DNA of 64,000 nt. Source: Jiella marina (GTDB lineage Bacteria; Pseudomonadota; Alphaproteobacteria; Rhizobiales; Rhizobiaceae). The notes under the pieces are model-generated. The model did no database searches. It was not told where the DNA came from and was given only the letters and a program-made list of their open reading frames with translations. The stretch covers positions 434,001 through 498,000 of the forward strand of contig NZ_JAKQZG010000002.1 of assembly GCF_024359545.1 (NCBI RefSeq), read 5' to 3'. Every line of letters begins with the position of its first letter. Within the stretch, counting starts at the first letter, position 1. Below, one piece after another: positions 45,326-64,000 of the stretch. Made by a program: the position numbers and the translations under genes.

Positions 45326-45361
45326 GACCGAGGCCCGCCCGCCGATCCGCCGATCGTCCGA

Positions 45362-48300: not shown

Positions 48301-48499
48301 CCTCGACCCGGCCGCAGACCGCATCCTCGATCTCCTCGGGCCGGCTGCCGGGCCAAGCCAGGGTGACACGGACCTCGTCGGGCGCGATGCGGGGGAAGGT
48401 CTCGCGCTGGAGCGTCGGATAGGAGGCAAGTCCGATCGCCAGGATGGCCAGCATCAAGAGGTTGGCGGCCGTCGGATGGCGGATGAAATAGGCGATCAC
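45362..48499 (-). CDS. RND-family efflux pump inner membrane transporter
   Basis: A 1045-residue RND permease with twelve helices and two large periplasmic loops, the standard AcrB/MexB-like size. N-terminus MIAYFIRHPTAANLLMLAIL; porter-domain segment LAWPGSRPEEIEDAVCGRVEDAI; the proton-relay Asp pair in GILMDDAIVIAENI of helix 4. The GTG start overlaps the adaptor stop codon (GTGA). C-terminal tail is acidic (GEEEDGPAGLRPEEAR). It exports drugs or lipids with the MFP adaptor; no outer-membrane channel gene is beside it. Confidence 0.92.
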   Translation of the reverse strand: MIAYFIRHPTAANLLMLAILAIGLASYPTLQRETFPRIAPDEVRVTLAWPGSRPEEIEDAVCGRVEDAIDAVNDVSQVTCEARESVASITVEKTAAVTLDRFTADITTAVDGIADFPEGVERPVVSQLGLTDLVASVAVTGPANRVHLKAYAEDLRDRMLRWGGIPKVDVLGFSDKEIRIALSREKLRALNVSVTDVARAVQQESLDLPSGSLETEDRDFLVRYAGERRSPEEFREIIVVSSASGGQVRLGSLAEIEERFALDEAQLTFNGNPAAILSVTKTAEQDTLEVFDRLDAFLEDARESAPPGVSMVITNDISSVVSDRLNLLIRNALQGLALVFLVLWLFFGLRYSLWVTASLPVSFAGGFFLMVLVGYSINMLTMVGLLIVIGILMDDAIVIAENIASHRADGKSPLRACIDGAMQVWPSVFASFATTACIFGSLAFLQGEIGQILRVVPVVMLFVLVISLVEAFLILPHHLKQSLSGGKSLTGRVQAGANRLLEKTREGVVMPLARLAVSWRYLTMGLSVAMLILTYAALAAGWIKFSPFPDIDGNVIEARVMMPPGTPLSRTEEVVADVSGALERVNERLSAEEPGGGPLVLNVTHRYNFNQDVGESGPHVATIVADLLDSETRTTEIAQILSLWQEEAGPIADVVTLNFTEGSFGPGGRAIDVRLAGSDLDQLSEAANELAAWFRRYRGVYNVMTDLRPGKPELQITLREGAAPLGITGRTIADQIRSAFQGSTVDEIEVGGEGYDITVILDPESRDSLADLDAFTITTADGSQVPLSTVARIETTRGFSRIRRIDGQRTVTIQGELDSRLGNSTEILAETRTEFLPGLLDRYPTVRAEFEGANADAERTQASMLRGFALGIVGIYLLLSFQFRSYLEPIVVMIIVPFSFIGAVGGHMLLGIDFTMPSMLGFLALGGIVVNNSILLVAFIKYHHGRTQSVAEAAVLASGARFRAIMLTSLTTIAGLLPLLTEQSLQAQTLIPLVTSLAFGLMVTTVLVLFIVPAAYTILADFSGVSLPSGEEEDGPAGLRPEEAR

Positions 48500-49917
48500 A
48501 GGTTCGAACCCGCCTCTTCGACGACGCCCTGCTCGGCAAGGCTCGTCTCCAGCGCCTCGTCGCGCGTGGCGCGAAGCAGCATGCCTTCCATGGCCGGTAG
48601 GAGATCGGTCACGACGACGCGGTCGCCGGGCTCGATACCCTCACGCACCACGACGACGCCGTCCTGGGAGAGCCCGGTCTCGACAGGGACGATCTCCAGC
48701 CTGTCGTCCGCGCCGACGAGATAGACCTTGCCGTCATGGAGCGCCGAACGCGGGATCACGATCTGGCCCTCCAGGGGCCTTGCCCGCAACTCGACTTCGA
48801 CGAACAGGCCTTTCGTCAAAGGCGGGCGCCGCCCGGCACTTGCTGTCCGCCAGGTGTTGTCGGCCGAGACGATGACGCCGACCGTGCGCGTCTTCAGATC
48901 GATCGTGTCCGACAGGCGCGAGACCTCGGCCGGCCAGGTGACGGAGATGGAATCCGCCTCGAGGCGGATCGTCGCCGAAAAGCCCAGGCGTTCGAGAATC
49001 TGGCGGATGTCGGTCGTGGTCATCGGGGTCGATTCCGCTTCGCTGAGCGCGGCCGCCCGCGCCAGCTTGGCGAATTCGGTGATCGGGATCTGCGCTTCCA
49101 CTTCCGAGGTCGCGATGCTGTCCGCCGTCGCCAGCGTGCTGCCCGCCTGGGCGAATTGCGAGACCTCCGCCGAAACCTCGGAAATGCGTGCATCGAAGGG
49201 CAGGGTGATCGTCGTGCGATCGAGGTTCAACTGCGCCTGCCGCAGCTCCAGCTCGTTTAGCCGCTTCTGTTCCTGAAGCGCCTTGCGTTGCGAGGGGAGC
49301 AGGCTGAGCGTGTTCTCGATCTCCTGGACCCGCTTTTGCTGTGCGAGAGACTCGCGCTGGTCCTGATCGAGCGTGTTGGCCGAGACCGTTCCGGTTTCGG
49401 CGAGCCGGCGTCTGCGGTCGGATTCGCGCTCGCGGATATCGAGTGCCCGCTGCTCGATCTCCAGATTGGCGCGCAGATTGGCTTCGTTGGCGTCCATTTC
49501 GGCCAGCTGGGCCTCGACGCGGCTGATATTCGCCTGGGCTCTGGCGACGGCGATTTCGTAGTCGGCGGGCGAGATGCGAAAGATCTCGGTGCCCTCGTCC
49601 AGGATCGCACCGCGTTTCAGCTGGGGATTGACGTAGGCGATCTCGCCGGAGGCCTGGGCGACGGCCTTCCAGGTCCGGCCCGGCTCGACGGAACCGAAAC
49701 CGCTCACGCGCGGCACGATCTCGCTCTCGCGGGCGACGATGACCCGGACATTGGCGGCATCCTCGACGCGCTCTTCGGTCACCGGCGGCTGGCGTTGTCC
49801 CGTCGCCCAGACCGCCACGAGGACCGCGAGAATGATCGGCGGAAGAAAAAGCAGCTTGCGCCACATGGAATGATCGATCGTCCCTGGTTTCGGCCGCGAG
49901 GGACCGCGTTTCGTCAT
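48496..49917 (-). CDS. RND efflux periplasmic adaptor (membrane fusion protein)
   Basis: A 473-residue MFP/HlyD-type adaptor. One N-terminal membrane anchor (residues 19-40, MWRKLLFLPPIILAVLVAVW); lipoyl-like halves around VSGFGSVEPGRTWKAVAQASGE; a long coiled coil (about residues 120-235, rich in Glu/Arg/Gln); then a beta-barrel domain and the C-terminal membrane-proximal domain. It bridges the RND pump to an outer membrane channel. Start ATG 49917 is as annotated; an internal Met at the anchor (residue 18) is an alternative. Confidence 0.9.
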   Translation of the reverse strand: MTKRGPSRPKPGTIDHSMWRKLLFLPPIILAVLVAVWATGQRQPPVTEERVEDAANVRVIVARESEIVPRVSGFGSVEPGRTWKAVAQASGEIAYVNPQLKRGAILDEGTEIFRISPADYEIAVARAQANISRVEAQLAEMDANEANLRANLEIEQRALDIRERESDRRRRLAETGTVSANTLDQDQRESLAQQKRVQEIENTLSLLPSQRKALQEQKRLNELELRQAQLNLDRTTITLPFDARISEVSAEVSQFAQAGSTLATADSIATSEVEAQIPITEFAKLARAAALSEAESTPMTTTDIRQILERLGFSATIRLEADSISVTWPAEVSRLSDTIDLKTRTVGVIVSADNTWRTASAGRRPPLTKGLFVEVELRARPLEGQIVIPRSALHDGKVYLVGADDRLEIVPVETGLSQDGVVVVREGIEPGDRVVVTDLLPAMEGMLLRATRDEALETSLAEQGVVEEAGSNL

Positions 49918-50187
49918 CGCAGCCCATCATCGCGTTTCCATTGGCCCCTGCGCAAGGCTTTGGGCTCGATCCGAGATGTGCAGGACCTCCGGGACCCTGC
50001 CGCTCCGGTCCGGCCATCACAACAGCGTCGGCCGCGATCGCACGTCCTTGTGACCCGCATGGCCGGTCATGCAGGGGTCTGTTGACGAACCAGGCGTCGC
50101 AGGCGGGGAGCGGACACCGATCGCTTCGGCCGCTCGGTCACTGCGTTAAACGGTCCTTTGCGCCTCCCGTCGGACGCCCATGCTCTA
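49918..50187. other. Gap between RND adaptor and IS element
   Basis: These 270 bases upstream of the RND operon presumably carry its promoter. No gene, repeat or clear operator is visible. Confidence 0.5.
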
Positions 50188-50201
50188 GGTCGCGTCTGCA
50201 T

Positions 50202-50639
50202 TCATCTGAGCCAGATCATGGCACATGCGAGATGGACGAAGCCCATGAATGCGGGAAGCGTCTTCTCGCAGCGGAGTGCGATCCGTCGGAAGCGCTTGAG
50301 CCGGTTGAAGAAGCATTCGATCTGATGGCGCTCCTTGTAGAGCGTCCAGTCGATCGGGTGGGTCCGCTTGCGCGTCGGGTTGGCCTTGATCTGCGCTGTT
50401 GCGCCGAGATCTTCGGCGATGAAGGCGCGTAGGGCATCGCTGTCATAGGCGGCGTCGGCGATGACGTGGTCGACGCCCAACAGCCCCTCAAGAAGGCCCT
50501 GCGCCTGAGGGCAGTCCCCGCGCTGGCCGGGCGTTGGTCGCACACGAAGCGGCAGGCCGATCGCATCGACGGCCGCATGCAGCTTGGTGGTCAGGCCGCC
50601 GCGCGAGCGTCCGATGGCGGCAGCCTGAGCCCCCCTTTT
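50202..50639 (-). CDS. IS5-family transposase, second frame (orfB)
   Basis: The C-terminal part of the transposase is read after a -1 frameshift. It begins QAAAIGRSRGGLTTKLHAAVDAIG, and includes the second catalytic Asp in VIADAAYDSD and the catalytic Glu in YKERHQIECFFNRLKRF, which fits the Y(2)R(3)E(6)K signature of the IS4/IS5 groups. The end, FVHLACAMIWLR, is the usual C-terminus. No stop separates it from the slippery run at 50630-50640. Confidence 0.85.
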   Translation of the reverse strand, partial: KRGAQAAAIGRSRGGLTTKLHAAVDAIGLPLRVRPTPGQRGDCPQAQGLLEGLLGVDHVIADAAYDSDALRAFIAEDLGATAQIKANPTRKRTHPIDWTLYKERHQIECFFNRLKRFRRIALRCEKTLPAFMGFVHLACAMIWLR

Positions 50640-50959
50640 TCTCCGCTCGCATCGGTGTGGACTTTCGAGATGGTGCTGTCGACGAGGACGTATTCGAAGT
50701 CTGGGTCTTCAGCCAGGCTCTCGAACAGTCGCTCCCAGACACCGGCATGCGACCAGCGCCGGAACCTTGCATGGACACCGGTCCATTTGCCGAACTGAGG
50801 CGGCAGATCGCGCCAACGCGCTGCGTTGTAGGCCATCCAGAGAATCGCATCGACAAATAGTCTGTTGTCGATGCCGCTGCGTCCGGGATCGCTGCGTTTG
50901 CCGGGAAGCAGGCCCTCTACGCGCGCCCACTGCTGATCGGTCAGGGTTCGTCGGCTCAA
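50591..50959 (-). CDS. IS5-family transposase, first frame (orfA)
   Basis: The N-terminal frame gives RRTLTDQQWARVEGLLPGK, the typical start of IS427-type transposases, and contains the first catalytic Asp in YVLVDSTISKVHTD. A TTG at 50959 is the likely start; the frame continues open beyond the element. On the minus strand the sequence GAAAAAGGGGGG (50630-50641) is the probable -1 slippage site joining orfA and orfB. Confidence 0.8.
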   Translation of the reverse strand: MSRRTLTDQQWARVEGLLPGKRSDPGRSGIDNRLFVDAILWMAYNAARWRDLPPQFGKWTGVHARFRRWSHAGVWERLFESLAEDPDFEYVLVDSTISKVHTDASGEKGGLRLPPSDARAAA

Positions 50960-51029
50960 AATCGCTCTCCGTTTGCGATCTTGAATCAAATTCAGAGCCG
51001 GAACGGAATCCTCTGAATGCAGACGCGAC

Positions 51030-52606
51030 CTAGTGGGTCGAGACCGGCAGCTTTCGGATCCAGGCAAGCAGCGCCGCGTCGTCGGTCATGTCGCCCTTGT
51101 AGACGAAAGCCGGCAATTGCGGCTGGTTGGATCCGCGGGCCCGATCCCGGTAGACCTTCATCGGCGTCGTCGCTCTGACCAGCTTGCTGGGGAGTACCAT
51201 GTGGTGGGCTTCCAGATAGAAACTGTCGGCATAGGTCTGGTGGCCGATCTGGATGCCCCCGATCGCCTTCCAGAGATCGATCGAGGTGAGGCAGGAGGAG
51301 GCGCATCGATAATTGGTGAGAAGATAGACCGGGCCGGCCATCGGATTTTTCGCGGCCTTCGCGGCGCCTGACGGCTGGCCGGTCTCGTCCTTCTCGCGCC
51401 AGAACGGCTTGCCGGCAGTAAGCGATTGCCGCATGCCGGCGGCGACCGTCTCGAGTTCGGCCGTCAGTTTCGCCGGGCGCTTGGATTTCTCGAACGTCTT
51501 GGCATAGCTCTCGACCAGCGCCGTATTGCCCTTCGAGGCCCGCCAGTCCACCGTGTCGTTGCCCGGTTTGGGATGGGCTTCGATCCAGTCTTTTCCCCAG
51601 AGAATTCGCGCGATCTCCTCGCTCCAATAGGACGATCCGCCGCCATTGCCCCGGACGTCGAGCACCACGAAGGGCGCGGCCCGAAGCGCGTCCTGTTCCT
51701 TGCGCGCCTTGGCGATGATCCTGGTGAGGCCCTTGAACGGGACACTGCCCTCACGGCCATTGAAGGACGACATGGACAGCCAGTACCCCCCGCCCGGCAG
51801 AGCGCGCATGGCGAAGGGCGGCCGCACGTCCTGGCGCAGGCGCGTGAGGGCTTCCGCGATCTTCTCCGCCGCGATCGGCCGCCAGGCGAGATCGTAGTTC
51901 CGCGCCTTGCCGTCGACCTCGAAGCGACAGCTTTGCGGCCGCTTGGCCCATGGATTCCCGTAATCGATGAAGAGCTTCGGCCCTTCCTCGATCCGTTGGG
52001 CAGGCAGGAACCAGAGTCCTTTGAAGGCTCCGATCCGGGTTTCGGCCAGCGTCTCGGCCGCGACACCGTCGCACCGAGCGGCGGCAGCGCAGGAGCGCCC
52101 GACGGCGCCGCCTCGCCCTCTGGCTTTGCGACCTCGGCCACGACCTGATCCGCGTCCCGGTATCGTGTGAGAAAGCCCGGCCACTCGGTGGAGAAGGCAA
52201 AGGACTTGTCGGTCATGTCGACGGCCACGTGACCATCGTTGAAGCTCGCCGCGAGGCCGGCCATGGCGAACCACCAGCCTTCGCGCGAATCGGCGGTTTC
52301 CGCGCGCTGCAGGGCCAGGTCGCGAGCGGCCTCGACCTGGGCTTTGAAGCCGGGGTTCTTCTTGTCGAAGACGCCGGGGTGATCGGCCATGATGAAGGCG
52401 ACCATCGCCTCGACATCGCCCTTCAGCGTCGCCGACCAATCGCGCGCCTTCTGCGTCTCGCCGGCGGCCGGAAGCGCCATGGCGAGGATACCGGCGAGCG
52501 AGAGCGCGCCAAGCGACAGGCCCGTCCGCCGTGTCCGGCGGTGATTCTCGGCCTGGCCCTCAAGCCTCGTCTCGCACGTCATGCTTCGCTCCACCTGCCG
52601 TTCCAT
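51030..52606 (-). pseudogene. S41-family peptidase, frameshifted and abutting IS
   Basis: The N-terminal part from ATG 52606 has a signal-type hydrophobic segment (LSLGALSLAGILAMALPAAGE), then MVAFIMADHPGVFDK and NDGHVAVDM. Near 52075-52085 the reading frame changes: the first frame leaves at GAPALPPLGA and the C-terminal frame continues VAAETLAETRIGAFKG. The C-terminal part has VLDVRGNGGGSSYWSE and YLLTNYRCASSCLTS, the S41 substrate-binding and catalytic Ser region. The stop TAG (51030-51032) is made of the IS target duplication and the last IS base, so the original end is lost or changed. A single-base assembly error is an alternative to a real frameshift. Confidence 0.75.
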
Positions 52607-52870
52607 GCAGGCTGCGAATATTCCGCACCGGCTGTTAAGGCCATGTTACGAGGGGAAAAGCGCGCGCCGAGTTCGGGGCGGCGGGTTCTTCGGAAACCCG
52701 ATTTGGTCACTGCCGGACGGAAATCGAAGACTCTACTGAAAGAAGCGGAGAATCGGCGCTCATTTGCGGAACGCAATAACGCGCTCCGGCTACAAAGCGC
52801 TGGGCGCAACCGGCCAGTCGATCATCCAAATCTCATAAAGCGGCTGGTGCCCAGGAGAGGCATCATTTCA

Positions 52871-52995
52871 TGTCTCTTGCCAGATGTCTCAACTCTTATG
52901 AGGCTGTCTCATGATGTCTCGTTTATAGATTAAATCACTGATTTTAAAGCGTATGATATGTCAACAAGGCTGCCGAAAACGTCTCTTTGTGTCTC
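52871..52995. repeat. Five TGTCTC repeats upstream of the integrase
   Basis: TGTCTC occurs at 52871, 52885, 52905, 52915 and 52990, all in the same orientation, inside the AT-richer 476-base gap 52607-53082. Spacings are 14, 20, 10 and 75. They could be arm-type integrase binding sites or repressor sites of the integrated island. No tRNA gene or attachment core was recognised in this gap. Confidence 0.55.
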
Positions 52996-53034
52996 ACTGG
53001 ATCTCATTCTCGTTCACCACCTCTCGCGAAAATT

Positions 53035-53051
53035 TACGTACAAAATACGTA
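53035..53051. promoter_or_regulatory. Twin TACGTA operator in front of the integrase
   Basis: TACGTA-CAAAA-TACGTA: two identical palindromic hexamers 11 bases (about one helical turn) apart, 32 bases before the integrase ATG at 53083. The geometry suits a dimeric repressor or integrase autoregulation. Confidence 0.5.
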
Positions 53052-53082
53052 CAGATGGTATGGTGCCCGAAAGGGGAGTGCC

Positions 53083-54279
53083 ATGCTGACTGCGATGAAA
53101 CTGCGCGCGATCAAGCCGAACGGAAAAATCCAGAACCACACTGATGGCGGCGGGCTTTATCTGCGGGTGTCGGCCGCGGGGAAAATGACCTGGCGGCTGG
53201 AGTATGCCGTCAACGGCCGGCGATCTTCGGCCACGCTCGGAGAGTATCCCGAGATGTCGCTTGCCGAAGCCCGAAACGAGCGGGGACGGATCAAGGCGGA
53301 TGCGAAAGCCGGTGTCATTCACGCGCCGAAGCCCGCCGCGCCTGAACAGGCGACAACATTCGGAGATATGGCGAGTCTCTACCTCGCTTCATTGAAGAAG
53401 AAGGACCCGGCCGCGCAAACGCTTCAGAAGAACACTTGGCTACTGGAAACGCTGGCCGAGCCGCTCCACCGAAAGCCGATCGCTGATATCCGGGCACGGG
53501 ATATCCTGCCGATCATCGAAGGCGTTGCGCATTCCGGTCGGCGAGAGAGTGCCGTTCGCCTTCGCGGCCGGATTGGTGCTGTCTTTGATCTTGCGATCGT
53601 TCGAGGCGAGATTGAGATGAACCCGGTGTCATCCCTCAAGGCCGTCTTGCCGAGGGTCGAGGTCGAGAGCACAGCCGCGATCACCGACGAGCAAGAATTC
53701 GGCAAGTTGCTGGCCGCTATCGAGGGCTACCCTGATCCCAGCATCCGACATGCGCTTCAGCTTCAGGCGTTCTGCTATCCTCGACCCGTCGAAACGAGGA
53801 TGGCCCGCTGGTCCAATATCGATCTGAAAGAAGCAGTCTGGACGATCCCGAAAGAGGTCGCGAAGATGCGTCGAGAGCATCTGATCCCCCTTTCGGCACA
53901 AGCGGTCGCGGTCTTTCAAGCGCAGCAGGAAATCAGCGGAGACAACGACTTCGTGTTTCCGAACCGCTATCGAAACAAGCATCCGATGATCAGCGAGAAT
54001 GCGATGAACTATGCCTTGCAGAAGCTCGGCTACGGCAAGGGGGTGCATACCGCCCACGGATTTCGCTCATCGGCCTCAACTATCCTCAATGAACGCGGCT
54101 GGCGTTTCGACGTGATCGAGGCCAGTCTTGCGCATGTTGACATGAACGCCGTTCGGTGTGCCTACAACCGTGCGCTCTACTGGAAGGAGCGAGTCGAGAT
54201 GGCGACCGCCTGGGCGGCTCTATGCGAGGAGTTTAAGAGAAGAGGAAAGCGCAAGCTGGAGTTGGAAGAGATTATCTGA
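53083..54279 (+). CDS. P4-type tyrosine-family integrase
   Basis: A 398-residue site-specific recombinase with an N-terminal DUF4102 arm-binding domain (LTAMKLRAIKPNGKIQNHTD, GGLYLRV) and a SAM-like core-binding domain (about residues 100-180). The catalytic domain has the first Arg in CYPRPVETRMARWSNID, then HGFR (H-x-x-R) and the Tyr in VRCAYNRALYWKER. The usual RPGELR motif is somewhat altered (RPVETR) but its Arg is kept. Such integrases mobilise genomic islands, often at tRNA genes. The ATG at 53083 has an AAGGGGAG site. The gene marks the left part of the island to the right. Confidence 0.9.
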   Translation: MLTAMKLRAIKPNGKIQNHTDGGGLYLRVSAAGKMTWRLEYAVNGRRSSATLGEYPEMSLAEARNERGRIKADAKAGVIHAPKPAAPEQATTFGDMASLYLASLKKKDPAAQTLQKNTWLLETLAEPLHRKPIADIRARDILPIIEGVAHSGRRESAVRLRGRIGAVFDLAIVRGEIEMNPVSSLKAVLPRVEVESTAAITDEQEFGKLLAAIEGYPDPSIRHALQLQAFCYPRPVETRMARWSNIDLKEAVWTIPKEVAKMRREHLIPLSAQAVAVFQAQQEISGDNDFVFPNRYRNKHPMISENAMNYALQKLGYGKGVHTAHGFRSSASTILNERGWRFDVIEASLAHVDMNAVRCAYNRALYWKERVEMATAWAALCEEFKRRGKRKLELEEII

Positions 54280-54495
54280 ACGTCTGCTCCCTGCGAAAAC
54301 CTGGCGTCGCAACTTTTCGGTTGGGTTTCGCCACCGACTCAATGGCTGTCGCCCGGACAATCCGATAGATTGCTCCCTATAGCGGCCTAAAGGTGCAATT
54401 CGGCATACCGAAGCTCAGCCAGGCTGCACTTGCATTTTGAGGCTCTGCCAATCCAATGTAACCAGGGATTGCTCTGATTCGGGGGGAGGAGCTTC

Positions 54496-57400
54496 GTGAC
54501 TAAGCCATTCTACGAACGGCCAATTCTGAATTCCCCCTATCATCCGCCGCATCACCATCATTGTCTGGACGATCAAGGGCAGCCGCTCGACCACGAGCCG
54601 ATCCGCGGAAGGCGCCGCTCGCGTTACTTGACGCCAGTCCCGAAAGCGCGTCGTCGGCGCGGCGCCGAGCAGGGCGAGCTTTCTCTTCATACTCAGGAAG
54701 GCGAACCGGGCACCTACAGCGAAAACGCCATCGTCAATGAGATCCGGACTCATCTTGAGCGGTGGCGATCAATACCAAATCCGAACGATTGGGGCGTCAC
54801 ACCCGCAACGCAGCGGCTTCTGCAGCACTGGCGTCACCACGACTTCCAGGGGCCTCGTCCGTTCTTCTGTCAGGTCGAGGCCGTCGAGACGGTGATCTGG
54901 CTGACCGAGGTCGCTCGGGGCAAACGCCAATACGCCCACCTCTTTCGAAGCCTGGAAGAGGCTAATCGCGACGCGAATCCCGATCTCTTCCGGCTTGCTC
55001 TGAAGCTTGCGACCGGCGCGGGAAAGACCACGGTCATGGCGATGCTGATCGCCTGGCAGGCGATCAATGCCGCTCGGCAGCCGAATTCGAAGCTTTTCTC
55101 GAAGGGCTTTCTGCTGATTGCCCCCGGCATCACGATCAAGGATCGGTTGCGCGTTCTTCTGCCATCCGGCGAGGAAAGTTATTACCGCTCACGCGAGCTG
55201 GTGCCGCCGGAACTGATGATCGATCTGCAGAAGGCGAAGATCGTCATCACGAACTACCACGTCTTTCAGCCGCGCAAGGTGCTCGACGTCAACAAGACTG
55301 GCGAGAGATTGCTCCAGGGACGGACCGGCGCGCCGATCGAGACCTTGGAGACGGAAGGCGAGATGCTGCGCCGGGCGTGCGGCGAGCTCCTGACGATGAA
55401 AAATGTCGTTGTCCTCAATGACGAGGCCCATCACTGCTATCGAGAGCGCCCGGGCGGTGATGATGAGGAGCAGCCCCTGAAGGGGGAGGAGCGCGACGAG
55501 GCAAAGAAGAATGCCGAGGCGGCCCGGCTTTGGATCTCCGGTATCGAGGCGTTGTCTCGCAAGGTTGGCATCCGGGCGGTTTACGATCTCTCCGCGACGC
55601 CCTTCTTTCTGCGCGGCTCAGGCTATGCCGAGGGCACGCTCTTTCCCTGGGTGATCTCCGACTTTTCGCTGATCGACGCGATCGAATGCGGCATCGTGAA
55701 GCTGCCGCGGGTGCCGGTCTCGGACAATACGGTCGTCAATGATCTGCCGGTGTTCCGGAATCTCTGGGAGCATATCGGCAAGGCCATGCCGAAGAAGGGT
55801 GCCGGCAAGTCCGGCGATCTGCCGCCGGAGGATCTGCCGGACCTTCTGAAAAATGCGCTCCTCTCGCTCTACAGCCACTATGAGGAGGAGGATGAAGCCT
55901 GGAAGCGTGCCGGCATCGGCGTGCCGCCGGTCTTTATCGTCGTCTGCAACAACACTGCGACCTCGAAACTCGTCTATGAGTGGATCGCCGGCTACGAGCG
56001 CGATGAGAATGGCGTCCGTACCTTCAAGCGGAACGGCAATCTCAAGCTCTTCCGCAACTACGACGAATACGGCAACGCCCTGCCGCGCATGAAAACTCTG
56101 CTCATCGACTCGCAGCAGCTGGAATCCGGCGAGGCGCTCGACGCCAATTTTCGCAAGCTTGCCGAGGCCGAGATCGATCAGTTCAAGCGCGAGAAGCGCG
56201 AGCGCGAGGGGGCGGAAGTCGGTAGTTTATCCGATGCCGATCTTCTGCGCGAGGTGATGAACACGGTCGGGCGCAAGGGCCGGCTCGGCGCCGACATCCG
56301 TTGCGTGGTTTCGGTCTCGATGCTGACGGAAGGCTGGGATGCGAATACCGTCACCCATGTCCTCGGCGTGCGGGCTTTCGGCACTCAGCTTTTATGCGAA
56401 CAGGTGATCGGTCGTGGTCTGCGCCGGCAATCCTACGAGCTCGGTACCGAGACCGATTCAGAGGGCCATCCGCTCTTCGACACCGAATATGCCGACATTC
56501 TCGGCATTCCCTTCGATTTTGCTGCCGAGCCGCAGAAGGTTTCGAAGAAGCCACCGAAACCGGTGACTCATGTCCGGGCGCTGCGCGAGCGCGGCGCTCT
56601 TTCGATCCGCTTTCCGCGTGTGGCCGGCTACCGCACCGAATTGCCGGACGATCGCTATGCGGCAACCTTCACCGAGGATTCGCGCCTGACGATTGATCCC
56701 TCGATGATCGGCCCGGGTGAAACCCGCATGGAGGGTCTTGTCGGCCAAGGCTATGACCTGCGCGCCGACGTGCTCGACGAAGAGCGGCCGGCCGCGATCA
56801 CCTTCCATCTGACGAAGCGACTGATCGAACGCTATTTCACCCAGGATGGCGCGCCGCCACCCTATCATCTGACGCCGAAGCTCTCTGCGATCGTGCGTCG
56901 CTGGGTTCGCGATTGCCTTGTTCTCAAGGGCGGGCTCAAGCCGGGCGTCATGACCTACTTCTCCACCGCCGACATGGCGGTCGATCGCATCTATCAGGCG
57001 ATGGTGCACGAGGCCGGCGTCAGCGGCGCCGAGGCCGTGCGGGTCGTGCTCGATCCTTACAACCGAGCCGGCACGACCGACCGCGTCGGCTTCCTCACGT
57101 CGAAAGATCGCCTCTGGGCGACCGCCGAGGACAAGTCGCACGTCAATTATGTCGTCGGTGACAGCGATTGGGAGCTGGAATTCGCCCGCGTCCTCGAAAA
57201 CCATCCGGCCACGCTCGCCTATGTCAAGAATCAGGGTCTCGGCTTCGAAGTGCCCTACAAGTTCGGTTCCGAAAGCCGCCGCTATCTTCCGGACTTCATC
57301 GTCAAGCTCGATGACGGCCATGGGCCGGACGATCCGCTCTTCCTGGTGGTCGAGATCAAGGGCTATCGCCGGGGTGGCGCGGAAGACAAAGCGCGCACCA

Positions 57401-57552
57401 TGACGACGCTCTGGGTGCCGGGCGTCAATCGACTTGGCGATTTCGGCCGATGGGACTTCGCCGAATTTCGGGACGCCTTCGCCATTCAGGACGAGTGGGA
57501 GAAGCTGGTGATTGGACTGCGGACTGGAAGCAGGAAAGAGGCCGCTGAATGA
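54496..57552 (+). CDS. Type III-like restriction helicase-nuclease (Res; BPTD_3080-like)
   Basis: A 1018-residue protein with SF2 helicase motifs: LATGAGKT (Walker A, residues 171-178), NDEAH (DEAH box, 309-312) and, later, EGWDANTVTHVLGVRAFG with QVIGRGLRR (motif VI). The C-terminus, YLPDFIVKLDD...LVVEIKGYR (about residues 930-965), is the PD-(D/E)xK nuclease. The GTG start at 54496 has a strong GGGGGGAGGAG site. It differs from classic Res in its long low-complexity N-terminus with HHHH and basic runs. Next come FRG, acidic protein and methyltransferase genes. Confidence 0.87.
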   Translation: MTKPFYERPILNSPYHPPHHHHCLDDQGQPLDHEPIRGRRRSRYLTPVPKARRRRGAEQGELSLHTQEGEPGTYSENAIVNEIRTHLERWRSIPNPNDWGVTPATQRLLQHWRHHDFQGPRPFFCQVEAVETVIWLTEVARGKRQYAHLFRSLEEANRDANPDLFRLALKLATGAGKTTVMAMLIAWQAINAARQPNSKLFSKGFLLIAPGITIKDRLRVLLPSGEESYYRSRELVPPELMIDLQKAKIVITNYHVFQPRKVLDVNKTGERLLQGRTGAPIETLETEGEMLRRACGELLTMKNVVVLNDEAHHCYRERPGGDDEEQPLKGEERDEAKKNAEAARLWISGIEALSRKVGIRAVYDLSATPFFLRGSGYAEGTLFPWVISDFSLIDAIECGIVKLPRVPVSDNTVVNDLPVFRNLWEHIGKAMPKKGAGKSGDLPPEDLPDLLKNALLSLYSHYEEEDEAWKRAGIGVPPVFIVVCNNTATSKLVYEWIAGYERDENGVRTFKRNGNLKLFRNYDEYGNALPRMKTLLIDSQQLESGEALDANFRKLAEAEIDQFKREKREREGAEVGSLSDADLLREVMNTVGRKGRLGADIRCVVSVSMLTEGWDANTVTHVLGVRAFGTQLLCEQVIGRGLRRQSYELGTETDSEGHPLFDTEYADILGIPFDFAAEPQKVSKKPPKPVTHVRALRERGALSIRFPRVAGYRTELPDDRYAATFTEDSRLTIDPSMIGPGETRMEGLVGQGYDLRADVLDEERPAAITFHLTKRLIERYFTQDGAPPPYHLTPKLSAIVRRWVRDCLVLKGGLKPGVMTYFSTADMAVDRIYQAMVHEAGVSGAEAVRVVLDPYNRAGTTDRVGFLTSKDRLWATAEDKSHVNYVVGDSDWELEFARVLENHPATLAYVKNQGLGFEVPYKFGSESRRYLPDFIVKLDDGHGPDDPLFLVVEIKGYRRGGAEDKARTMTTLWVPGVNRLGDFGRWDFAEFRDAFAIQDEWEKLVIGLRTGSRKEAAE

Positions 57553-58259
57553 AACTTCGTATCCCTGCACGTGTCAAACTGCGACGGGAGGCGCGAGCCA
57601 AGTTCAGCGAATTCGTTGGTTGGGCGCAGGGCAAGTCAACGCATCGCTGGGTCTTTCGAGGACATGCCAACCACTGGAGTTTGAAGCCCTCCGTGGGGCG
57701 CGCGAAGCTATCCCGCATAGACTACGAACGGCAACTCTTGAAAGACTTTCAGAGAGGTGCCCGGCCGTTCCTGGATGAAACGCCGGAAAACGACTGGGAC
57801 TGGTTGGCCGTCGCACAACATCACGGGCTACCTACGCGTCTTCTGGATTGGACGACCAACCCGTTAGTAGCGGCCTACTTTGCTACGGCGCAGATTGGCA
57901 AGAGCCGGCAGTCGGGTGAAGTCATAGCCGTCGAAGCGCGTAAGGTCGGATTTTATCATCCCGAAGACCCGAAAGAAGACAATCCATTTGATATCAGCGA
58001 AGCACGCTTCATCCGTCCACCGACGATCGCGGCCAGGATCGGCAGCCAGCGTGGACTATTCTCGATTCATCCAGAACCCGAAAAGCCATGGTATCTCACC
58101 GGGAAGTCCGAGCGTTTCGAGATTGCTCATGGCTACAAGGATGAGTTCCGACGTTCGCTTCATGCTATGGGTGTCGACGACGCATCGTTGATGGCGGACC
58201 TCGACGGTCTCGCCAAGATGCTTAAATGGCGCTTCGAAAATAGGCTGTTAAGCGAATGA
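57549..58259 (+). CDS. FRG-domain protein
   Basis: A 236-residue protein. The name-giving motif is in HRWVFRGHANHWSLKPS (FRG at residues 36-38), and AQHHGLPTRLLDWTTNPLVAAYFA (about 88-111) is the second conserved block of the family, possibly a catalytic site. FRG proteins are frequent in defence islands, but their activity is unsettled. It overlaps the preceding restriction gene and the next small gene by four bases each. Confidence 0.82.
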   Translation: MKLRIPARVKLRREARAKFSEFVGWAQGKSTHRWVFRGHANHWSLKPSVGRAKLSRIDYERQLLKDFQRGARPFLDETPENDWDWLAVAQHHGLPTRLLDWTTNPLVAAYFATAQIGKSRQSGEVIAVEARKVGFYHPEDPKEDNPFDISEARFIRPPTIAARIGSQRGLFSIHPEPEKPWYLTGKSERFEIAHGYKDEFRRSLHAMGVDDASLMADLDGLAKMLKWRFENRLLSE

Positions 58260-58669
58260 GTGTCCCTGTCCGAATTCAGAATCCCGGCCGTAAGATTTGG
58301 TTCGACGAGATGCCTGAGAAGCTCTCGGAGGCGGCCGACGACTATGACATCACTTCTGACGCGAGCTGGAACGATCTCGATATTCTCTCCACCCACACCG
58401 AATATGAGGGGTTGGAGGTATTTGCGGAATCGGGAGCGATCGCCGGCGAGGATCTTACCGCCCCTGGTGTCGTCCACGTGACCCTGAACTACGGGAGCAA
58501 GTCCGACGAAGGTTTTGCGACGAGCGAAAGCTTCCCAGCCATCGTTCACTTCACGGCCGATCCGGAAAAGAAAACCGTCGAGATCGTCTCCCTGGAGATC
58601 GACACGTCTTCCTTCTACGGCGACGGCGACGGCGACTCGCCAGATATCGATGATACTTCCTCTGCATAA
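58256..58669 (+). CDS. Small acidic protein, unknown function
   Basis: A 137-residue protein with no family I recognise. It is strongly acidic, and its C-terminus (YGDGDGDSPDIDDTSS) is almost all Asp, Gly and Ser. It contains a compact middle part (VVHVTLNYGS, AIVHFTADPEKKTVEIVSLEI) with beta-rich patterns. Its ATGA overlap with the FRG gene, and position just before the methyltransferase, suggest a partner, inhibitor or DNA-mimic role; that is only a guess. Confidence 0.7.
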   Translation: MSVPVRIQNPGRKIWFDEMPEKLSEAADDYDITSDASWNDLDILSTHTEYEGLEVFAESGAIAGEDLTAPGVVHVTLNYGSKSDEGFATSESFPAIVHFTADPEKKTVEIVSLEIDTSSFYGDGDGDSPDIDDTSSA

Positions 58670-58695
58670 GACCAGACCGGAGCCACATCCCGCTG

Positions 58696-61692
58696 ATGCC
58701 CCGTCGCCCCACCACCCCGCGTGAAAAATCCGTCGACACGCTGACCCATGACAAGGCGAAGCGTATCAACAATCCGACCGCCGAAATGGCCTCGCTCTAT
58801 GAGCAGCAGGCGGAAATCCTGGGCGAGGAGACGGCCGAGCTTCGCATTCTCCGCGACCGGCCGCTGGCCGAAGGGGAACACCGCGAGCGAGATGCCGATC
58901 GCGATCCGCAGATCGTCTGGGGCAATGCCAAGGTTCGCCTGACGCAGGCGCAGATCAAGGCGCTGATGCAGGGCGAGGCGATCGATCTCGCCGATGCGCA
59001 GCTCACCTGGCGCGGCAAGGACCAGCAGGACTGGTCCGATCTCATCGTCAATGCGCCATCGCTCTACATTCAGGAGAAGGTGCATCCCAAGGCGATCATC
59101 GACGATCTGAAGCGCGGCACGGCGAAAAAGCGGGAAGACAGTTCAGAGGCGCCCGACCTCTTCGCTGATTTCAACGGCCTCGATGATCCCGAGGCGCGGG
59201 CCGAGTTCTACCAGCATTCCATGCACTGGCAGAACCGCATGATCCTCGGCGATTCGCTGCAGGTGATGGCTTCGCTCGCCGAGCGCGAGGCGCTGAAGGG
59301 GCAGGTGCAGTGCATCTATTTCGACCCGCCCTATGGCATCAAGTTCAATTCCAACTGGCAGGTCTCCACCCTGTCGCGCGACGTCAAGGACGGCAAGGTC
59401 ACCGACGTCTCCCGCGAGCCGGAGCAGGTGAAGGCGTTCCGCGACACCTGGAAGGACGGCATCCACTCCTACCTCACCTATCTGCGCGACCGTCTGATGG
59501 TCGCCCGCGAACTCCTCACTGAGTCGGGCTCTATCTTCGTCCAGATCGGCGACGAGAACGTGCATCGGGTTCGGGCGCTGATGGACGAGGTGTTCGGAGA
59601 GGACAATTTTGTTTCTCAGATAACACTCACGAAGGCCGCATCCCAGAGTTCTTATCTGCTTCCAAGCGTGAATGACTTCATTCTATGGTATGCTCGCCAA
59701 AAGACAAAGGTGAAGTATCGAACTTTGTTTCAGGAACGGGCTGCTATCGAGCGGCCTGAAGAACGATATATTTGCGTAGAAGAGCCAAACGGACGAATCC
59801 ATGATCTGACGTATCGACAAAAAGTCGGCGCAGACCCCGTTCCGAGCGGGCGCTTCCTCAGGATGATTACCGCAACATCTCAAACTGGCTCGGAGACATC
59901 GCGGTTTCCCTACAGATTCTGGAATCAAACATTTAGACCGCCCGGTGCCAGAGGTTGGTCCACTGGTGATAGGGGGCTGAGGCGTGTCGAGCGTGCAGGT
60001 CGTATGTGGGCAGCCGGCACGACCCTAATGTGGAAGAATTATCACGAGGATTACGCGTATAGGCCGCGCGTTTCTCTGTGGGATGACATCAGGTCTAGCG
60101 GCTTTGGGTCAAGCAAAGTCTATATTGTTCAGACGCTTCCTGAGGCAGTCCAGCGCTGCATCCTGATGGCCACGGACCCCGGCGATCTCGTTCTCGACCC
60201 AACGTGCGGCTCCGGCACGACGGCGACGGTCGCCGAGCAATGGGGCCGCCGCTGGATCACCATCGACACCTCGCGTGTCGCTCTGGCACTCGCTCGCACA
60301 CGGCTGATGAGCGCGCGCTATCCCTATTATCTTCTCGCCGACAGCCAGGAGGGGCGCGAGAAGGAGCAGGCGGTTTCCGGGAAAATTCAGACCGAAGCGA
60401 AGACCCATGGCGATATCCGCCAGGGATTCGTCTATGAGCGCGCGCCGCACATCACGCTAAAATCCATCGCCAACAATGCCGAGATCGACGTGATCTGGGA
60501 GAAATGGCAGGCGAGGCTGGAGCCTCTCCGCGACAAGCTCAACGCGGCACTCTCTACGGGCTGGGAAGAATGGCAGATCCCGCGCGATCTCGACGTCTGG
60601 CTGGGGGAGAAGGAGGGCACTGGCAAGGCCGGGCTCGTCACCGACACCGCGCGCAAGCTGCACGCCGACTGGTGGAAGGCGCGGATCGCCCGGCAGAAGG
60701 AGATCGACGATTCGATCGCCAAGGCCGCCGATGTCGAGATGCTCTACGACCGCCCCTATGAGGACAAGGCCCGGGTTCGCGTCGCCGGGCCCTTCACGGT
60801 GGAGAGCCTCTCGCCGCACCGGGTGGTGACCGCCCGCGACGATACGCTGGCCGACGAGATCGCCGCCGTGGACGGCGCCATGCAGCGCGCGCCGAAGAAC
60901 ATGCCCGAGGCGGATTTCGGCGCCATGGTTCTGGAGAACCTCAAGACCTCCGGCGTCCACCAGCAGGCCAAGGCCGACACGATCCACTTTTCATCGCTGG
61001 AGCCCTGGCCGGGCAATTTCATCGCGGCCGTTGGCACCTATTCCGATGGCGGTGGCGCCGAGAAGCGCGCCGGCGTTCTGATCGGACCGGAATTCGGCAC
61101 CCTGTCGCGCTCCGACATCACGGCCGCCGCCCGCGAAGCCGCCGACGCCCGCTTCGACGCGCTGGTGGCCTGCGCCTTCAATTTCGACGCTCAAGCCTCC
61201 GACCTGACGCGCCTCGGCCCGCTGGCGATCCTCAAGGCCCGCATGAACCCCGATCTCCACATGGCGGAGGATCTGAAGAACACCGGCAAGGGCAATCTCT
61301 TCGTGGTCTTCGGCGAACCGGACGTCGAGCTGATCGACCGCTCGGATGGGCAGATCCAGGTAAAGGTGCATGGCGTCGACGTGTTCGACCCCTCCAACGG
61401 CGAAATCCGCTCCGACGGCACCGACGGCATCGCCGTCTGGTTCATCGACACTGATTATGACGAGGAATCCTTCTTCGTGCGCCAGGCATACTTCCTTGGC
61501 GCCGCCGCCAACGGCGGCAGCGACCCCTACAAGAGCCTGAAGACCGCTCTCAAAACCGAAATCGACCGCGACGCCTGGGAGACGCTCTATTCCGACGTCT
61601 CACGCCCCTTCCCGCGACCAGCGACGGGGCGGATTGCGGTGAAGGTGATCAACCACTTCGGGGACGAGGTGTTGAAGGTTTTTGGGGTGTAA
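58696..61692 (+). CDS. Adenine-specific DNA methyltransferase (type III Mod-like)
   Basis: A 998-residue N6-adenine methyltransferase of the beta class, in which the catalytic motif IV DPPYGIKF (residues 210-217) precedes the SAM-binding motif I DPTCGSGTT (501-509). The region between, about 302-485, is the target-recognition part and is clearly poorer in GC than both flanks. The N-terminus is long and Glu-rich; the C-terminal 400 residues have no catalytic motifs. With the helicase-nuclease it forms a restriction-modification pair. It starts 27 bases after the acidic protein. Confidence 0.9.
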   Translation: MPRRPTTPREKSVDTLTHDKAKRINNPTAEMASLYEQQAEILGEETAELRILRDRPLAEGEHRERDADRDPQIVWGNAKVRLTQAQIKALMQGEAIDLADAQLTWRGKDQQDWSDLIVNAPSLYIQEKVHPKAIIDDLKRGTAKKREDSSEAPDLFADFNGLDDPEARAEFYQHSMHWQNRMILGDSLQVMASLAEREALKGQVQCIYFDPPYGIKFNSNWQVSTLSRDVKDGKVTDVSREPEQVKAFRDTWKDGIHSYLTYLRDRLMVARELLTESGSIFVQIGDENVHRVRALMDEVFGEDNFVSQITLTKAASQSSYLLPSVNDFILWYARQKTKVKYRTLFQERAAIERPEERYICVEEPNGRIHDLTYRQKVGADPVPSGRFLRMITATSQTGSETSRFPYRFWNQTFRPPGARGWSTGDRGLRRVERAGRMWAAGTTLMWKNYHEDYAYRPRVSLWDDIRSSGFGSSKVYIVQTLPEAVQRCILMATDPGDLVLDPTCGSGTTATVAEQWGRRWITIDTSRVALALARTRLMSARYPYYLLADSQEGREKEQAVSGKIQTEAKTHGDIRQGFVYERAPHITLKSIANNAEIDVIWEKWQARLEPLRDKLNAALSTGWEEWQIPRDLDVWLGEKEGTGKAGLVTDTARKLHADWWKARIARQKEIDDSIAKAADVEMLYDRPYEDKARVRVAGPFTVESLSPHRVVTARDDTLADEIAAVDGAMQRAPKNMPEADFGAMVLENLKTSGVHQQAKADTIHFSSLEPWPGNFIAAVGTYSDGGGAEKRAGVLIGPEFGTLSRSDITAAAREAADARFDALVACAFNFDAQASDLTRLGPLAILKARMNPDLHMAEDLKNTGKGNLFVVFGEPDVELIDRSDGQIQVKVHGVDVFDPSNGEIRSDGTDGIAVWFIDTDYDEESFFVRQAYFLGAAANGGSDPYKSLKTALKTEIDRDAWETLYSDVSRPFPRPATGRIAVKVINHFGDEVLKVFGV

Positions 61693-61704
61693 GGGTGAGG
61701 CCCG

Positions 61705-62334
61705 ATGACAAGGCAAAAAGACGTAAAGTGGTGGAAGATTCGAAATCAGAGCCTCGCCGTTGCCTCAAGAAATGCGGGATTTGATTTAGCGATATACGAC
61801 CAATACAGTAAAAGCGTTCGAAACGAATTAAAGCGATTAACAATAAAAGAAGCTTTGCGAAATATGCGCGATACGTTTTGGGAGGTCAGTAACGAGAGGG
61901 ATATTAAGGACATAAGTCAGGGTGTTTACGTAATCTGCTTGTCAGATCCGTTTTGTATAAAATACGATTTAGGACCCTCTAATATTATATATATCGGCAT
62001 TGGGAATGTATTTTCCCGATTGGACAGCCATTTTAATAAAAGTCTATTTTCATTTATGAGAAGCTTATCAGGTGCGGACTTCGATTTTTACTTAACTGAA
62101 CCCGTTCACAATACAAGTGAGGATTATTACAAGCACATTGAATATCTGATGCTGCATCGATTTCAAGATAAAATTGGAGGAGGAAAATATCCACTTTTAA
62201 ATAAAAACGCGGGTTCAAAGCGATCTATCGATCAAATTGGGAAAGGTTGGGACACGCCTCTCAAGCAAACAGGTAAGAGGCCCGCTTGGTCGCTTCATCC
62301 AACAAAGCATTGGAAGTTTGAGAACCTTGATTGA
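61705..62334 (+). CDS. GIY-YIG-like nuclease domain protein, AT-rich
   Basis: A 209-residue protein. The GIY part is GVYVI (73-77), the YIG part IIYIG (94-98); R105, H109, E146 (HIEYLMLHRF) and the Asn in LLNKNAG fit a GIY-YIG endonuclease site. The gene is much richer in A and T than its surroundings (20 G or C in 60 bases at both 61801 and 62041), indicating an independent origin. The AAGGGTGAGG site before ATG 61705 is good. It follows the methyltransferase gene closely. Confidence 0.7.
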   Translation: MTRQKDVKWWKIRNQSLAVASRNAGFDLAIYDQYSKSVRNELKRLTIKEALRNMRDTFWEVSNERDIKDISQGVYVICLSDPFCIKYDLGPSNIIYIGIGNVFSRLDSHFNKSLFSFMRSLSGADFDFYLTEPVHNTSEDYYKHIEYLMLHRFQDKIGGGKYPLLNKNAGSKRSIDQIGKGWDTPLKQTGKRPAWSLHPTKHWKFENLD

Positions 62335-62355
62335 GATCATTTGAGAAATCGACTT

Positions 62356-63219
62356 ATGCGCCTCCATACACCTCAGATAGAAAGAGCCCTTGTTATCCGT
62401 GAGCCTTGGATCGGAAGGATCCTGTCCGGAAAGAAGACCTGGGAGATGCGCTCGAAACCAACGGGGATCCGCGGCCCGATCGGTCTGATCCGACAGGGAT
62501 CAGGCATAGTCGTCGGAATTGCGCGCCTTGCAGAGTCGTTGCGACCGCTGGATGAGGCCGGCTACGCGGCAAGTTTCGACAAGCACCAGATCCCTTCCGA
62601 AATGCAGGCGGAGGTGATCCGGAACTGGTGGGTCTATCCCTGGGTGCTGGAAGACATCCGACCGCTTTCGGTGCCTGTGCCATATGACCACCCATCCGGC
62701 GCAGTGACGTTTGTGAAGCTCCAAGAATCGGTCCAACGGGCGATCGCCGAGCAGCTCTCGAACTATCGGGAGCCGACACCAGCGACACAGCCCGAGCATT
62801 CGACCCGCGACGTCGAACCAATGGCTCGGCAGGCGGGGACTGACAAATCGGATCACCCTGTCCTGAACGAGCCGCCGGCACGCACCGAGGCGACCGGGCT
62901 GGCGGCGGGACTCCTGATACGCCTGTCCGGGGGAAACATTCGCAATGGTCATTTCTATCTGCGATCAGCGGCAGACATGATTCCGGCCGGAGGCATCGGC
63001 GGCGGAAACAAGCAAGATCTTGGCCGGCCGTTCACCGTTCGCTTCGACCCCGGACAGACGATCGAGACGGATGTTGCGGGCGACAAAATGATCCTGCGCG
63101 CGCGAGGCCCGGTTCGCGACTTCTTCGCGCGCTCTGGCGCCAAGGAAGGTGATTTCGTGCGGGTGCATAAGGAGGACCCGCGAACGCTCCTCATAACCCT
63201 CGAAAGCCGATCAGGCTGA
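62356..63219 (+). CDS. ASCH-domain protein with C-terminal pseudobarrel
   Basis: A 287-residue protein. The N-terminal part ALVIREPWIGRILSGKKTWEMR with IRGPIGLI and VVGIARL is the ASCH fold, often a reader of modified bases or RNA. A linker rich in Pro, Glu and Thr follows. The C-terminal part, GHFYLRSAADMIPAGGIGGGN, resembles the B3/EcoRII-N pseudobarrel DNA-binding domains. The ATG at 62356 is preferred to a TTG five codons before. It is fused by overlap (TGATG) to the helicase gene. Confidence 0.68.
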   Translation: MRLHTPQIERALVIREPWIGRILSGKKTWEMRSKPTGIRGPIGLIRQGSGIVVGIARLAESLRPLDEAGYAASFDKHQIPSEMQAEVIRNWWVYPWVLEDIRPLSVPVPYDHPSGAVTFVKLQESVQRAIAEQLSNYREPTPATQPEHSTRDVEPMARQAGTDKSDHPVLNEPPARTEATGLAAGLLIRLSGGNIRNGHFYLRSAADMIPAGGIGGGNKQDLGRPFTVRFDPGQTIETDVAGDKMILRARGPVRDFFARSGAKEGDFVRVHKEDPRTLLITLESRSG

Positions 63220-64000
63220 TGTCGACCGTCCTCTCCGACACCTTTCAGGTCGCGCTCGGCAAGCTGACTAATGACGAGCAGAAGCAGGTCAAGATCACCG
63301 TCTTCGATCTGCAGACCGACCCGTCCGGTCCAGGGCTGAAATTTCACCGCATCGACAAGTCGAAGGACGAGAACTTCTGGTCGGTTCGCGTCAGCCGCGA
63401 CATCCGCATCATTGTGCACAAGCTGAAGGACAGCCTGGCGCTGGTCTATGTCGACCACCATGACGACGCCTACAAATGGGCTGAGCGCCGACGGATGGAG
63501 GTGCACGAAAAGACGGGGGCGCTCCAGATCGTCGAAGTGCGCGAACGGGTCGTGGAGATCGACGCGCCGATCGCAGTTCAGGCCGAGTTGTTCGGCGGAG
63601 GCTCTCCTCTCGCAACGAGGAGCGATATCGGCTCGTCACCAACGGCATCTTCGGTGTCGACGGAACCTCAGCCAAAACTCTTCGCGGCCCTCTCGGAAGA
63701 CGACCTGCTTTCGGTCGGTGTGCCGCGCGACTGGTTGGCTGACATTGCCGCAGCGGACGAAGAACGCTTCTTTCAGCTTGCCGGGCATCTGCCGTCGGAG
63801 GCTGGCGAGGCGCTTCTCGACTATGCGGCGACCGGCATCTTGAAGCCGGCCGCAGCGCCGGTCGCCGATCCTATGCAGCATCCCGACAGCCTGCGTCGCT
63901 TCCGGGTCATGGAAGGCATCGATGAGTTGCGCGCAGCTCTCGACGCGCCGTTCGAGCGCTGGACGGTGTTCCTGCATCCAGCCCAGCGCGGGGTCGTCGA
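63219..64000 (+). CDS. UvrD-type helicase with RelE-like N-terminus (partial)
   Basis: The first about 260 residues of a gene that continues past the window edge. The N-terminal 90 residues (FQVALGKLTNDEQKQVKITV...FWSVRVSRDIRIIVHKLKDSLALVYVDHHDDAYKWAERR) resemble a RelE/ParE fold; the end, PFERWTVFLHPAQRGVV, is the lead-in to the Walker A of UvrD/Rep-type helicases that share this layout. The Walker A itself is not in the window. It starts within the stop codon of the ASCH gene. The frame is open to the last base. Confidence 0.75.
   Translation, partial: MSTVLSDTFQVALGKLTNDEQKQVKITVFDLQTDPSGPGLKFHRIDKSKDENFWSVRVSRDIRIIVHKLKDSLALVYVDHHDDAYKWAERRRMEVHEKTGALQIVEVRERVVEIDAPIAVQAELFGGGSPLATRSDIGSSPTASSVSTEPQPKLFAALSEDDLLSVGVPRDWLADIAAADEERFFQLAGHLPSEAGEALLDYAATGILKPAAAPVADPMQHPDSLRRFRVMEGIDELRAALDAPFERWTVFLHPAQRGVV

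Follow-up and report, generated by a model that had tools for sequence, protein, structure and literature searches.

Exchangeable toxins in restriction-modification (RM) operons were proposed by Makarova et al. 2012, who speak of 'repeated toxin displacement' (PMC3506569). A study on BREX and BREX-related systems describes a methylation-based core with many auxiliary effectors beside or inside the operon, among them GmrSD, PD-(D/E)XK, HEPN, OLD, and others (PMC12839542), and variable backup effectors are reported for Dnd (PMC10853773). Here we describe an operon at the right end of a 64,000-nucleotide stretch of Jiella marina DNA (assembly GCF_024359545.1, contig NZ_JAKQZG010000002.1, positions 434,001 to 498,000 of the forward strand; hereafter the window). 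Comparison with 99 other loci suggests that it is probably a type III-like RM operon in which a third, dedicated core gene encodes a RelE-fold/UvrD helicase (RelE-UvrD) and two slots take up exchangeable defence modules, here called cargo. Slot A is the interval between the restriction gene (Res) and the methyltransferase gene (Mod), and slot B is the interval between Mod and RelE-UvrD.

The operon resembles type III RM systems of the EcoP15I kind in its beta-class Mod, where a DPPY motif precedes and an S-adenosylmethionine (SAM) motif follows a variable region, and in its Res, which combines a helicase with C-terminal PD-(D/E)XK motifs. Unlike those systems, it includes RelE-UvrD and two cargo slots, its Mod is ~1000 aa long and conserved right to the C-terminus, and phmmer finds no PDB entry that matches its Res at E ≤ 0.1. 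Mod is matched best in the PDB by three type III Mods with chains of 567 to 644 aa, namely 6k0w, 4zcf (EcoP15I), and 7dsu (Mbo45V, which we take to be a type III enzyme). Gene order differs as well; canonical type III operons run mod-res, whereas the order here is res-mod.

RM operons with embedded toxins, such as EcoprrI with PrrC, share with this locus the placement of an effector gene inside the operon, in this case an FRG gene between Res and Mod. UvrD goes unmentioned in the main text of Makarova et al. 2012, the available portions of which describe neither delimited slots nor a link to FRG (PMC3506569), whereas these are counted here over 100 loci. In contrast to BREX, the genes are Res, Mod, and RelE-UvrD, no profile match to PglZ or BrxC was obtained among the genes scanned, and the main text of the BREX study names neither FRG nor UvrD (PMC12839542). 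A likeness to Gabija GajB and other UvrD-like defence helicases lies in the helicase part of RelE-UvrD, which matches GajB profiles, but the protein has an N-terminal RelE-fold domain and its partners are Mod and Res. Membership in Gabija was rejected, since no GajA-type (ATPase-TOPRIM nuclease) match appeared among the operon genes scanned. A non-exhaustive literature search of titles and abstract openings yielded no description that we recognised of RelE-UvrD as a third core gene, of the two slots, or of a link between FRG, pP_pnuc_2, and Mod. Earlier accounts of embedded toxins in RM operons are individual cases or general statements. A core with two fixed hypervariable slots opens the question to testing, as one chassis can be studied bare and loaded, with its cargo exchanged, and in natural pairs whose main difference is the cargo.

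Core genes Res, Mod, and RelE-UvrD

The sample of 100 loci consisted of the window locus, 8 plasmid loci picked from 40 of 690 records, the best 80 of at least 570 relatives, and 11 other genomes of the family, which were all the others found among 199. Every locus was located via Mod, so the sample is one of loci that have this gene. Profiles of Res, Mod, and RelE-UvrD were made from relatives, and gene neighbourhoods were then read in the 100 loci. A survey of 385 genomes of the class used thresholds of E ≤ 1e-80 for RelE-UvrD and E ≤ 1e-100 for Mod; at the latter, Mod was present in 23 of the 385 class genomes and in 12 of the 199 family genomes, this genome included. Among the matches listed, the closest named Mod relatives were from Shinella and Rhizobium.

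Res (54496–57552, + strand) scored 1234.6 bits against NF046055, the NCBIfam profile of the BPTD_3080 family, for which the curated cut-off is 800. A comparison of motifs in 30 sequences revealed that TGxGKT at residues 173–178 (Walker A), DEAHH at 309–313, P932-D933, and E953-x-K955 are all invariant, as expected of an intact helicase and C-terminal nuclease. Mod (58696–61692, + strand) matched the PADLOC profile MTase_III with 1183 bits. Its DPPY (210–213) and DPTCGSGT (501–508, the SAM motif) were conserved in at least 97% of 86 sequences, and the order of DPPY, variable region, and SAM motif is that of a beta-class methyltransferase. The variable region covers approximately residues 341–460, where the frequency of the commonest residue falls to 0.26–0.36 per 20-residue bin at 341–420 and is ~0.5 up to 460; it is presumed to be the target-recognition region. 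Three loci (L009, L126, L127) have the reversed order, Mod then Res, and lack RelE-UvrD.

In 66 of the 100 loci, RelE-UvrD (709 aa; 63219–64000 on the + strand, continuing to 65348 beyond the window) is encoded 3' of Mod on the same strand, either directly or after intervening slot genes. In 12 of the 34 loci without it, the sequence ends less than 6 kb further right; of the 80 loci with at least 6 kb past Mod, 58 have RelE-UvrD after it. The gene is also missing from L007, L008, and L010, which are cyanobacterial and rhodococcal. Its profile separated full-length members (scores of at least 1045) and the truncated L021 (456) from other helicases (at most 81). Class-wide linkage of RelE-UvrD to Mod is a stronger test than the locus counts, which are based on Mod. 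The survey returned 18 RelE-UvrD matches in 17 of the 385 genomes, and all 14 matches away from contig edges (13 genomes) were within 6.3 kb of Mod, 12 of them on the same strand and two, in G360 and G458, on the opposite one. In the other four genomes, 9 to 625 bases lie between the start of the gene and a contig edge, and an upstream neighbour would be lost. With RelE-UvrD after Mod in 58 of those 80 loci, homologous loci do not always consist of Res and Mod only, a pattern that the earlier note on this DNA had set against its own proposal. That note had counted UvrD as an extra gene together with FRG, GIY-YIG, and ASCH; the last three are, like the pP_pnuc_2 gene, variable cargo, but UvrD is the recurring third component.

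The Walker A, DEAQD, and C-terminal helicase motifs of RelE-UvrD are kept and near-invariant. Its first 115 residues are the best conserved, with 75% mean column identity compared with 58% for the whole protein (calculated on different sets, of 58 and 30 sequences). An AlphaFold model had block means of pLDDT above 90 over residues 1–100, and in a Foldseek comparison of this model with the PDB, 23 of the 24 best matches were titled RelE, YoeB, YafQ, or related toxins or complexes, the remaining one (HP0894) being a conserved hypothetical protein; 4 of the 24 reached E ≤ 0.001. Judged from this predicted structure, the domain is of the RelE/YoeB superfamily fold. The sequence profile link to RelE was not significant (E 0.8–0.9), the best match (E 0.61) being an unrelated tetratricopeptide protein. 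In a weak match (E 0.93), the invariant Arg-63 and His-81 align with residues 65 and 83 of YoeB, which are presumably catalytic. Because it is so strongly conserved, the RelE domain looks more like a structural or sensing part than like a fast-changing toxin.

A second UvrD gene follows RelE-UvrD beyond the window. In a planctomycete locus (L035:15532-17691), a relative of this gene is located directly before RelE-UvrD, so that the second helicase may itself be recurrent cargo.

Two slots with changing cargo

Slot A could be delimited in 90 loci, of which 40 were empty, and slot B in 66, of which 18 were empty. Both were delimited in 64 loci, 50 with cargo and 14 without called cargo; the cargo totals are lower bounds and the count of bare loci is an upper bound, as the gene caller skips even the GIY-YIG-like gene of the window. 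Slot genes point in the direction of the operon in 65 of 66 cases in slot A and 74 of 80 in slot B, compared with 120 of 188 outside neighbours upstream and 92 of 164 downstream. Junctions between cargo and core genes measured at most 30 bases in 31/50, 34/50, 38/48, and 40/48 cases, with median gaps of -4 to +3.5 bases. This strand bias and spacing led us to reject the idea that the slot genes are merely random neighbours in a defence island.

The 139 called cargo genes fell into 87 families, 58 of them seen once, so that unnamed defence genes could be sought in the slots. Of the 29 families with several members, 28 were confined to one slot; the single mixed family compares with a permutation mean of 18.8 and a minimum of 9 in 20,000 shuffles. 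The mixed family is ASCH, whose slot A member is in L038, where RelE-UvrD is missing. Slot purity is in part a product of common descent and is therefore treated as a lead only. In 60 related cargo pairs, cargo identity was within 10 points of Mod identity in 33, lower by more than that in 21, and higher by more in 6.

Turnover of the cargo around a lasting core is directly visible in the aligned sequences. Of 21 pairs that have cargo on both sides and a Mod identity of 75% or more, 3 have any cargo family in common. A comparison of L005 (a Rhizobium leguminosarum plasmid) with L120 (a family genome) disclosed DNA identities of 89.3% for Res, 83.6% for Mod, and 86.1% for RelE-UvrD, the similarity ending within 17 bases of the end of Res and within 8 bases of both ends of Mod. 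The RelE-UvrD block starts 138 bases 5' of the gene, within a short gene of slot B. L005 has a 307-aa gene in slot A, where L120 has 859 bases without a called gene on the operon strand, and the genes of slot B differ except for that short one, with 39% protein identity.

Pfam and PADLOC scans covered 58 proteins of slot A and 72 of slot B, as defined by first-pass gene calls, and took in the first 25 families of each scan; the 43 genes that follow Mod in loci lacking RelE-UvrD stand apart from this set. Slot A contained Bro-N (7), GmrSD (6), HATPase_c_4 (4), Fic (3), and NOV_C (3), and, in smaller numbers, PD-(D/E)XK, BrnT, NYN, TIR, and FRG. Slot B contained SIR2 (4), AAA types, subtilase (3), HerA (2), and HNH (2). 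Whole named pairs were recognised by PADLOC in slot B, SIR2-HerA in L039, L041, and L087 and IetAS in L046, the latter with homologues in L058 and L080. The same families also occur outside the operon; ASCH accompanies DUF1156 and DUF499 proteins, and FRG is found next to a type I RM system and also among unrelated genes, which suggests a cargo pool shared with other modification-based defences.

The cargo of the window and its possible roles

In slot A of the window, an FRG-domain protein (57549–58259, + strand; PF08867, E 3.6e-29; PADLOC PDC-S15) precedes a small acidic protein (58256–58669, + strand). FRG has been placed in the ART superfamily and suggested to be an effector or NADase, according to PMC9503650. 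The acidic protein was described by its charge alone in the earlier note, a label that was correct but incomplete, as the protein carries a pP_pnuc_2 domain (PF18166, E 7.3e-15); no PDB sequence match was found for it. A possible partnership of the two is suggested by L122, where a slot A FRG gene (40% identical to that of the window) is followed directly by a Mod with an extra N-terminal domain. Over 61 gapless aligned positions this domain matched the pP_pnuc_2 protein of the window with a score of 97, compared with a mean of 27.9 and a highest value of 58 in 5000 shuffles, and with 40 for the next best Mod. This one fusion hints that FRG and pP_pnuc_2 could form a pair whose adaptor touches Mod. 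Most FRG genes manage without pP_pnuc_2, since FRG is found in 24 of the 385 class genomes and pP_pnuc_2 in one, this genome alone. A second FRG-domain gene lies elsewhere in the same genome (G000:C37:68417-68671, minus strand).

Slot B contains a GIY-YIG-like putative nuclease gene (61705–62334, + strand) and an ASCH gene (62341–63219, + strand). The former has 39% GC, in contrast to 61–62% in its neighbours, and is for this reason probably a recent import and the latest arrival in the operon. It was detected in none of the 99 other loci at E < 0.1, and neither viral contigs nor a search of phage records gave a match. For the GIY-YIG label of the earlier note the observations are mixed; YIG, R105, E146, and N166 are kept in four sequences (the window and three distant enterobacterial homologues), but Cys takes the place of the first G of GIY in all three of the latter, searches gave no Pfam or other profile match and no PDB sequence match, and a single-sequence structure model reached a pLDDT of 35. 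The ASCH protein of the window scores below the Pfam cut-off (19.2 compared with 21.2 bits), but plasmid homologues annotated as ASCH match it (best E 1e-28). Relatives of the ASCH protein are present in slot B of L120, L125, and L129 and in slot A of L038, and relatives of FRG in L122 and L086; the two never share one locus.

In the explanation that we prefer, a type III-like RM operon with RelE-UvrD and two slots for exchangeable modules, Mod would mark sites in the host's DNA, and together with Res it would cut invading DNA that lacks the marks. RelE-UvrD would probably act on DNA ends or on a stalled complex following the action of Res. The slot genes would provide a second layer, co-expressed and replaced as cassettes, against invaders that evade or block restriction. 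In the window, slot A would contribute FRG, possibly an NAD-consuming or ADP-ribosylating effector, together with pP_pnuc_2 as its partner; slot B would contribute the GIY-YIG-like nuclease and the ASCH protein, perhaps a sensor of modified bases. While core, slots, cargo turnover, operon spacing, intact catalytic motifs, and island borders are read from the sequences themselves, and the RelE fold from a predicted model, these biochemical steps, the second-layer role, and a coupling of FRG to Mod are what we infer from them.

Several observations weigh against this explanation. RelE-UvrD is missing in 22 loci that have at least 6 kb past Mod, and slot A is filled in 10 of 16 loci without it compared with 32 of 64 with it, that is, at least as often, so its occupancy is independent of the helicase. 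An FRG-like gene lies upstream of Mod in L086 with no pP_pnuc_2. The PF18166 profile fails to recognise the domain fused to Mod in L122, a locus that itself lacks RelE-UvrD, and no other among the 19 terminal extensions found in core proteins resembles cargo. SIR2-HerA and IetAS act alone, and their presence in slot B indicates that cargo may need nothing of the core beyond expression.

That last point would suit an arrangement in which the operon is a convenient landing place and the cargo consists of independent defence or addiction genes that use the RM promoter without functional connection to the core. We hold this to be quite possible, although we lean away from it. Complete two-gene systems in slot B, the occurrence of the same cargo families elsewhere, and the low GC of the GIY-YIG-like gene are all in its favour. 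It accounts less readily for cargo that is nearly always co-directional, unlike the flanking genes, and mostly within 30 bases of core genes, or for the fusion of Mod, next to an FRG gene, with a domain like pP_pnuc_2; the restriction of 28 of 29 families to one slot also speaks against it, in part explained by common descent. A tighter bond is conceivable if the RM complex silences cargo effectors, as in PrrC, so that an antirestriction block frees them and the cell dies; pP_pnuc_2 on Mod would then hold FRG. Such guarding appears doubtful. The L122 arrangement, the view of FRG as an ART-superfamily effector, perhaps an NADase (PMC9503650), and the precedent of PrrC in EcoprrI agree with it, and this precedent (PMC12707154) makes it attractive for FRG. 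It must be set against a single fusion in 100 loci, against the separation of FRG from pP_pnuc_2 in L086 and in the class genomes, and against cargo modules that likely carry their own sensors. Plain co-expression is favoured for other cargo, as self-sufficient systems such as SIR2-HerA and IetAS are present, and the two arrangements can both be true for different cargo.

A further reading, which we rate as unlikely, sees Res, Mod, and RelE-UvrD as a general chassis for docking effectors, in which adaptors such as pP_pnuc_2 would tie FRG to Mod, the RelE domain would serve as a common trigger or assembly platform, and the slots would take different effector classes. If so, one sensor of failed restriction could fire dozens of unrelated killing modules. 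Tight operon spacing could also point to a defence system of eight fixed genes in a new combination, and the earlier note had proposed such an unusual set of partners. It knew of no named system with exactly this composition, and the co-occurrence check found the set in none of the 99 other loci, but this result argues against a co-evolved set, as cargo differs from locus to locus and no called cargo is present in 14 of the 64 loci in which both slots are delimited. We regard a fixed system as highly improbable, and in the sampled loci it was rejected because the composition is unrepeated.

The surrounding island

The operon lies in an integrated island of 30.7 kb that reaches 83547, as defined by an exact 16-base direct repeat with one copy (attL) at 52845–52860 and the other at 83532–83547, which is exactly the 3' end of tRNA-Leu(CAG). 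Next to the left copy is the P4-type tyrosine integrase of the island (52987–54279, + strand), which contains PF00589, PF13356 (Arm-DNA-bind_3), and PF22022 (Phage_int_M). The integrated nature of the island and its defence character, both claimed in the earlier note, are borne out. So are its eight genes, from integrase to RelE-UvrD, which all lie on the + strand between 52987 and the end of the window, and, by spacing, its single operon of genes that mostly overlap or lie at most 30 bases apart. Spacings from Res rightward are -4, -4, +26, +12, +6, and -1 bases, and, in the sequence to the right of 64000 to which that note had pointed, RelE-UvrD ends at 65348 and the second UvrD gene follows with an overlap of 10 bases. 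Integrase and Res are 216 bases apart, and 449 bases separate the second UvrD from the next gene of more than 100 aa; given these gaps, the natural reading is one eight-gene operon from Res through the second UvrD (54496–67453).

The three same-genus genomes compared all have the tRNA and the right flank, and none has Mod at E ≤ 1e-100. On the left, window positions 45000–52900 are nearly absent from the same three genomes, with matches of up to 121 bases only, and are possibly another integrated stretch adjoining the island. To the right of the window, a 149-aa gene overlaps that of a 1401-aa STAND/NACHT-like NTPase (67903–72557); no family membership was found for the former and no PADLOC match at E ≤ 0.01 for the latter, and the two could be an unnamed two-gene defence system. 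The same tRNA-Leu island also carries a Zorya locus on the minus strand (73060–80514), with ZorD, ZorC, and ZorB recognised by PADLOC and ZorA presumed from its position.

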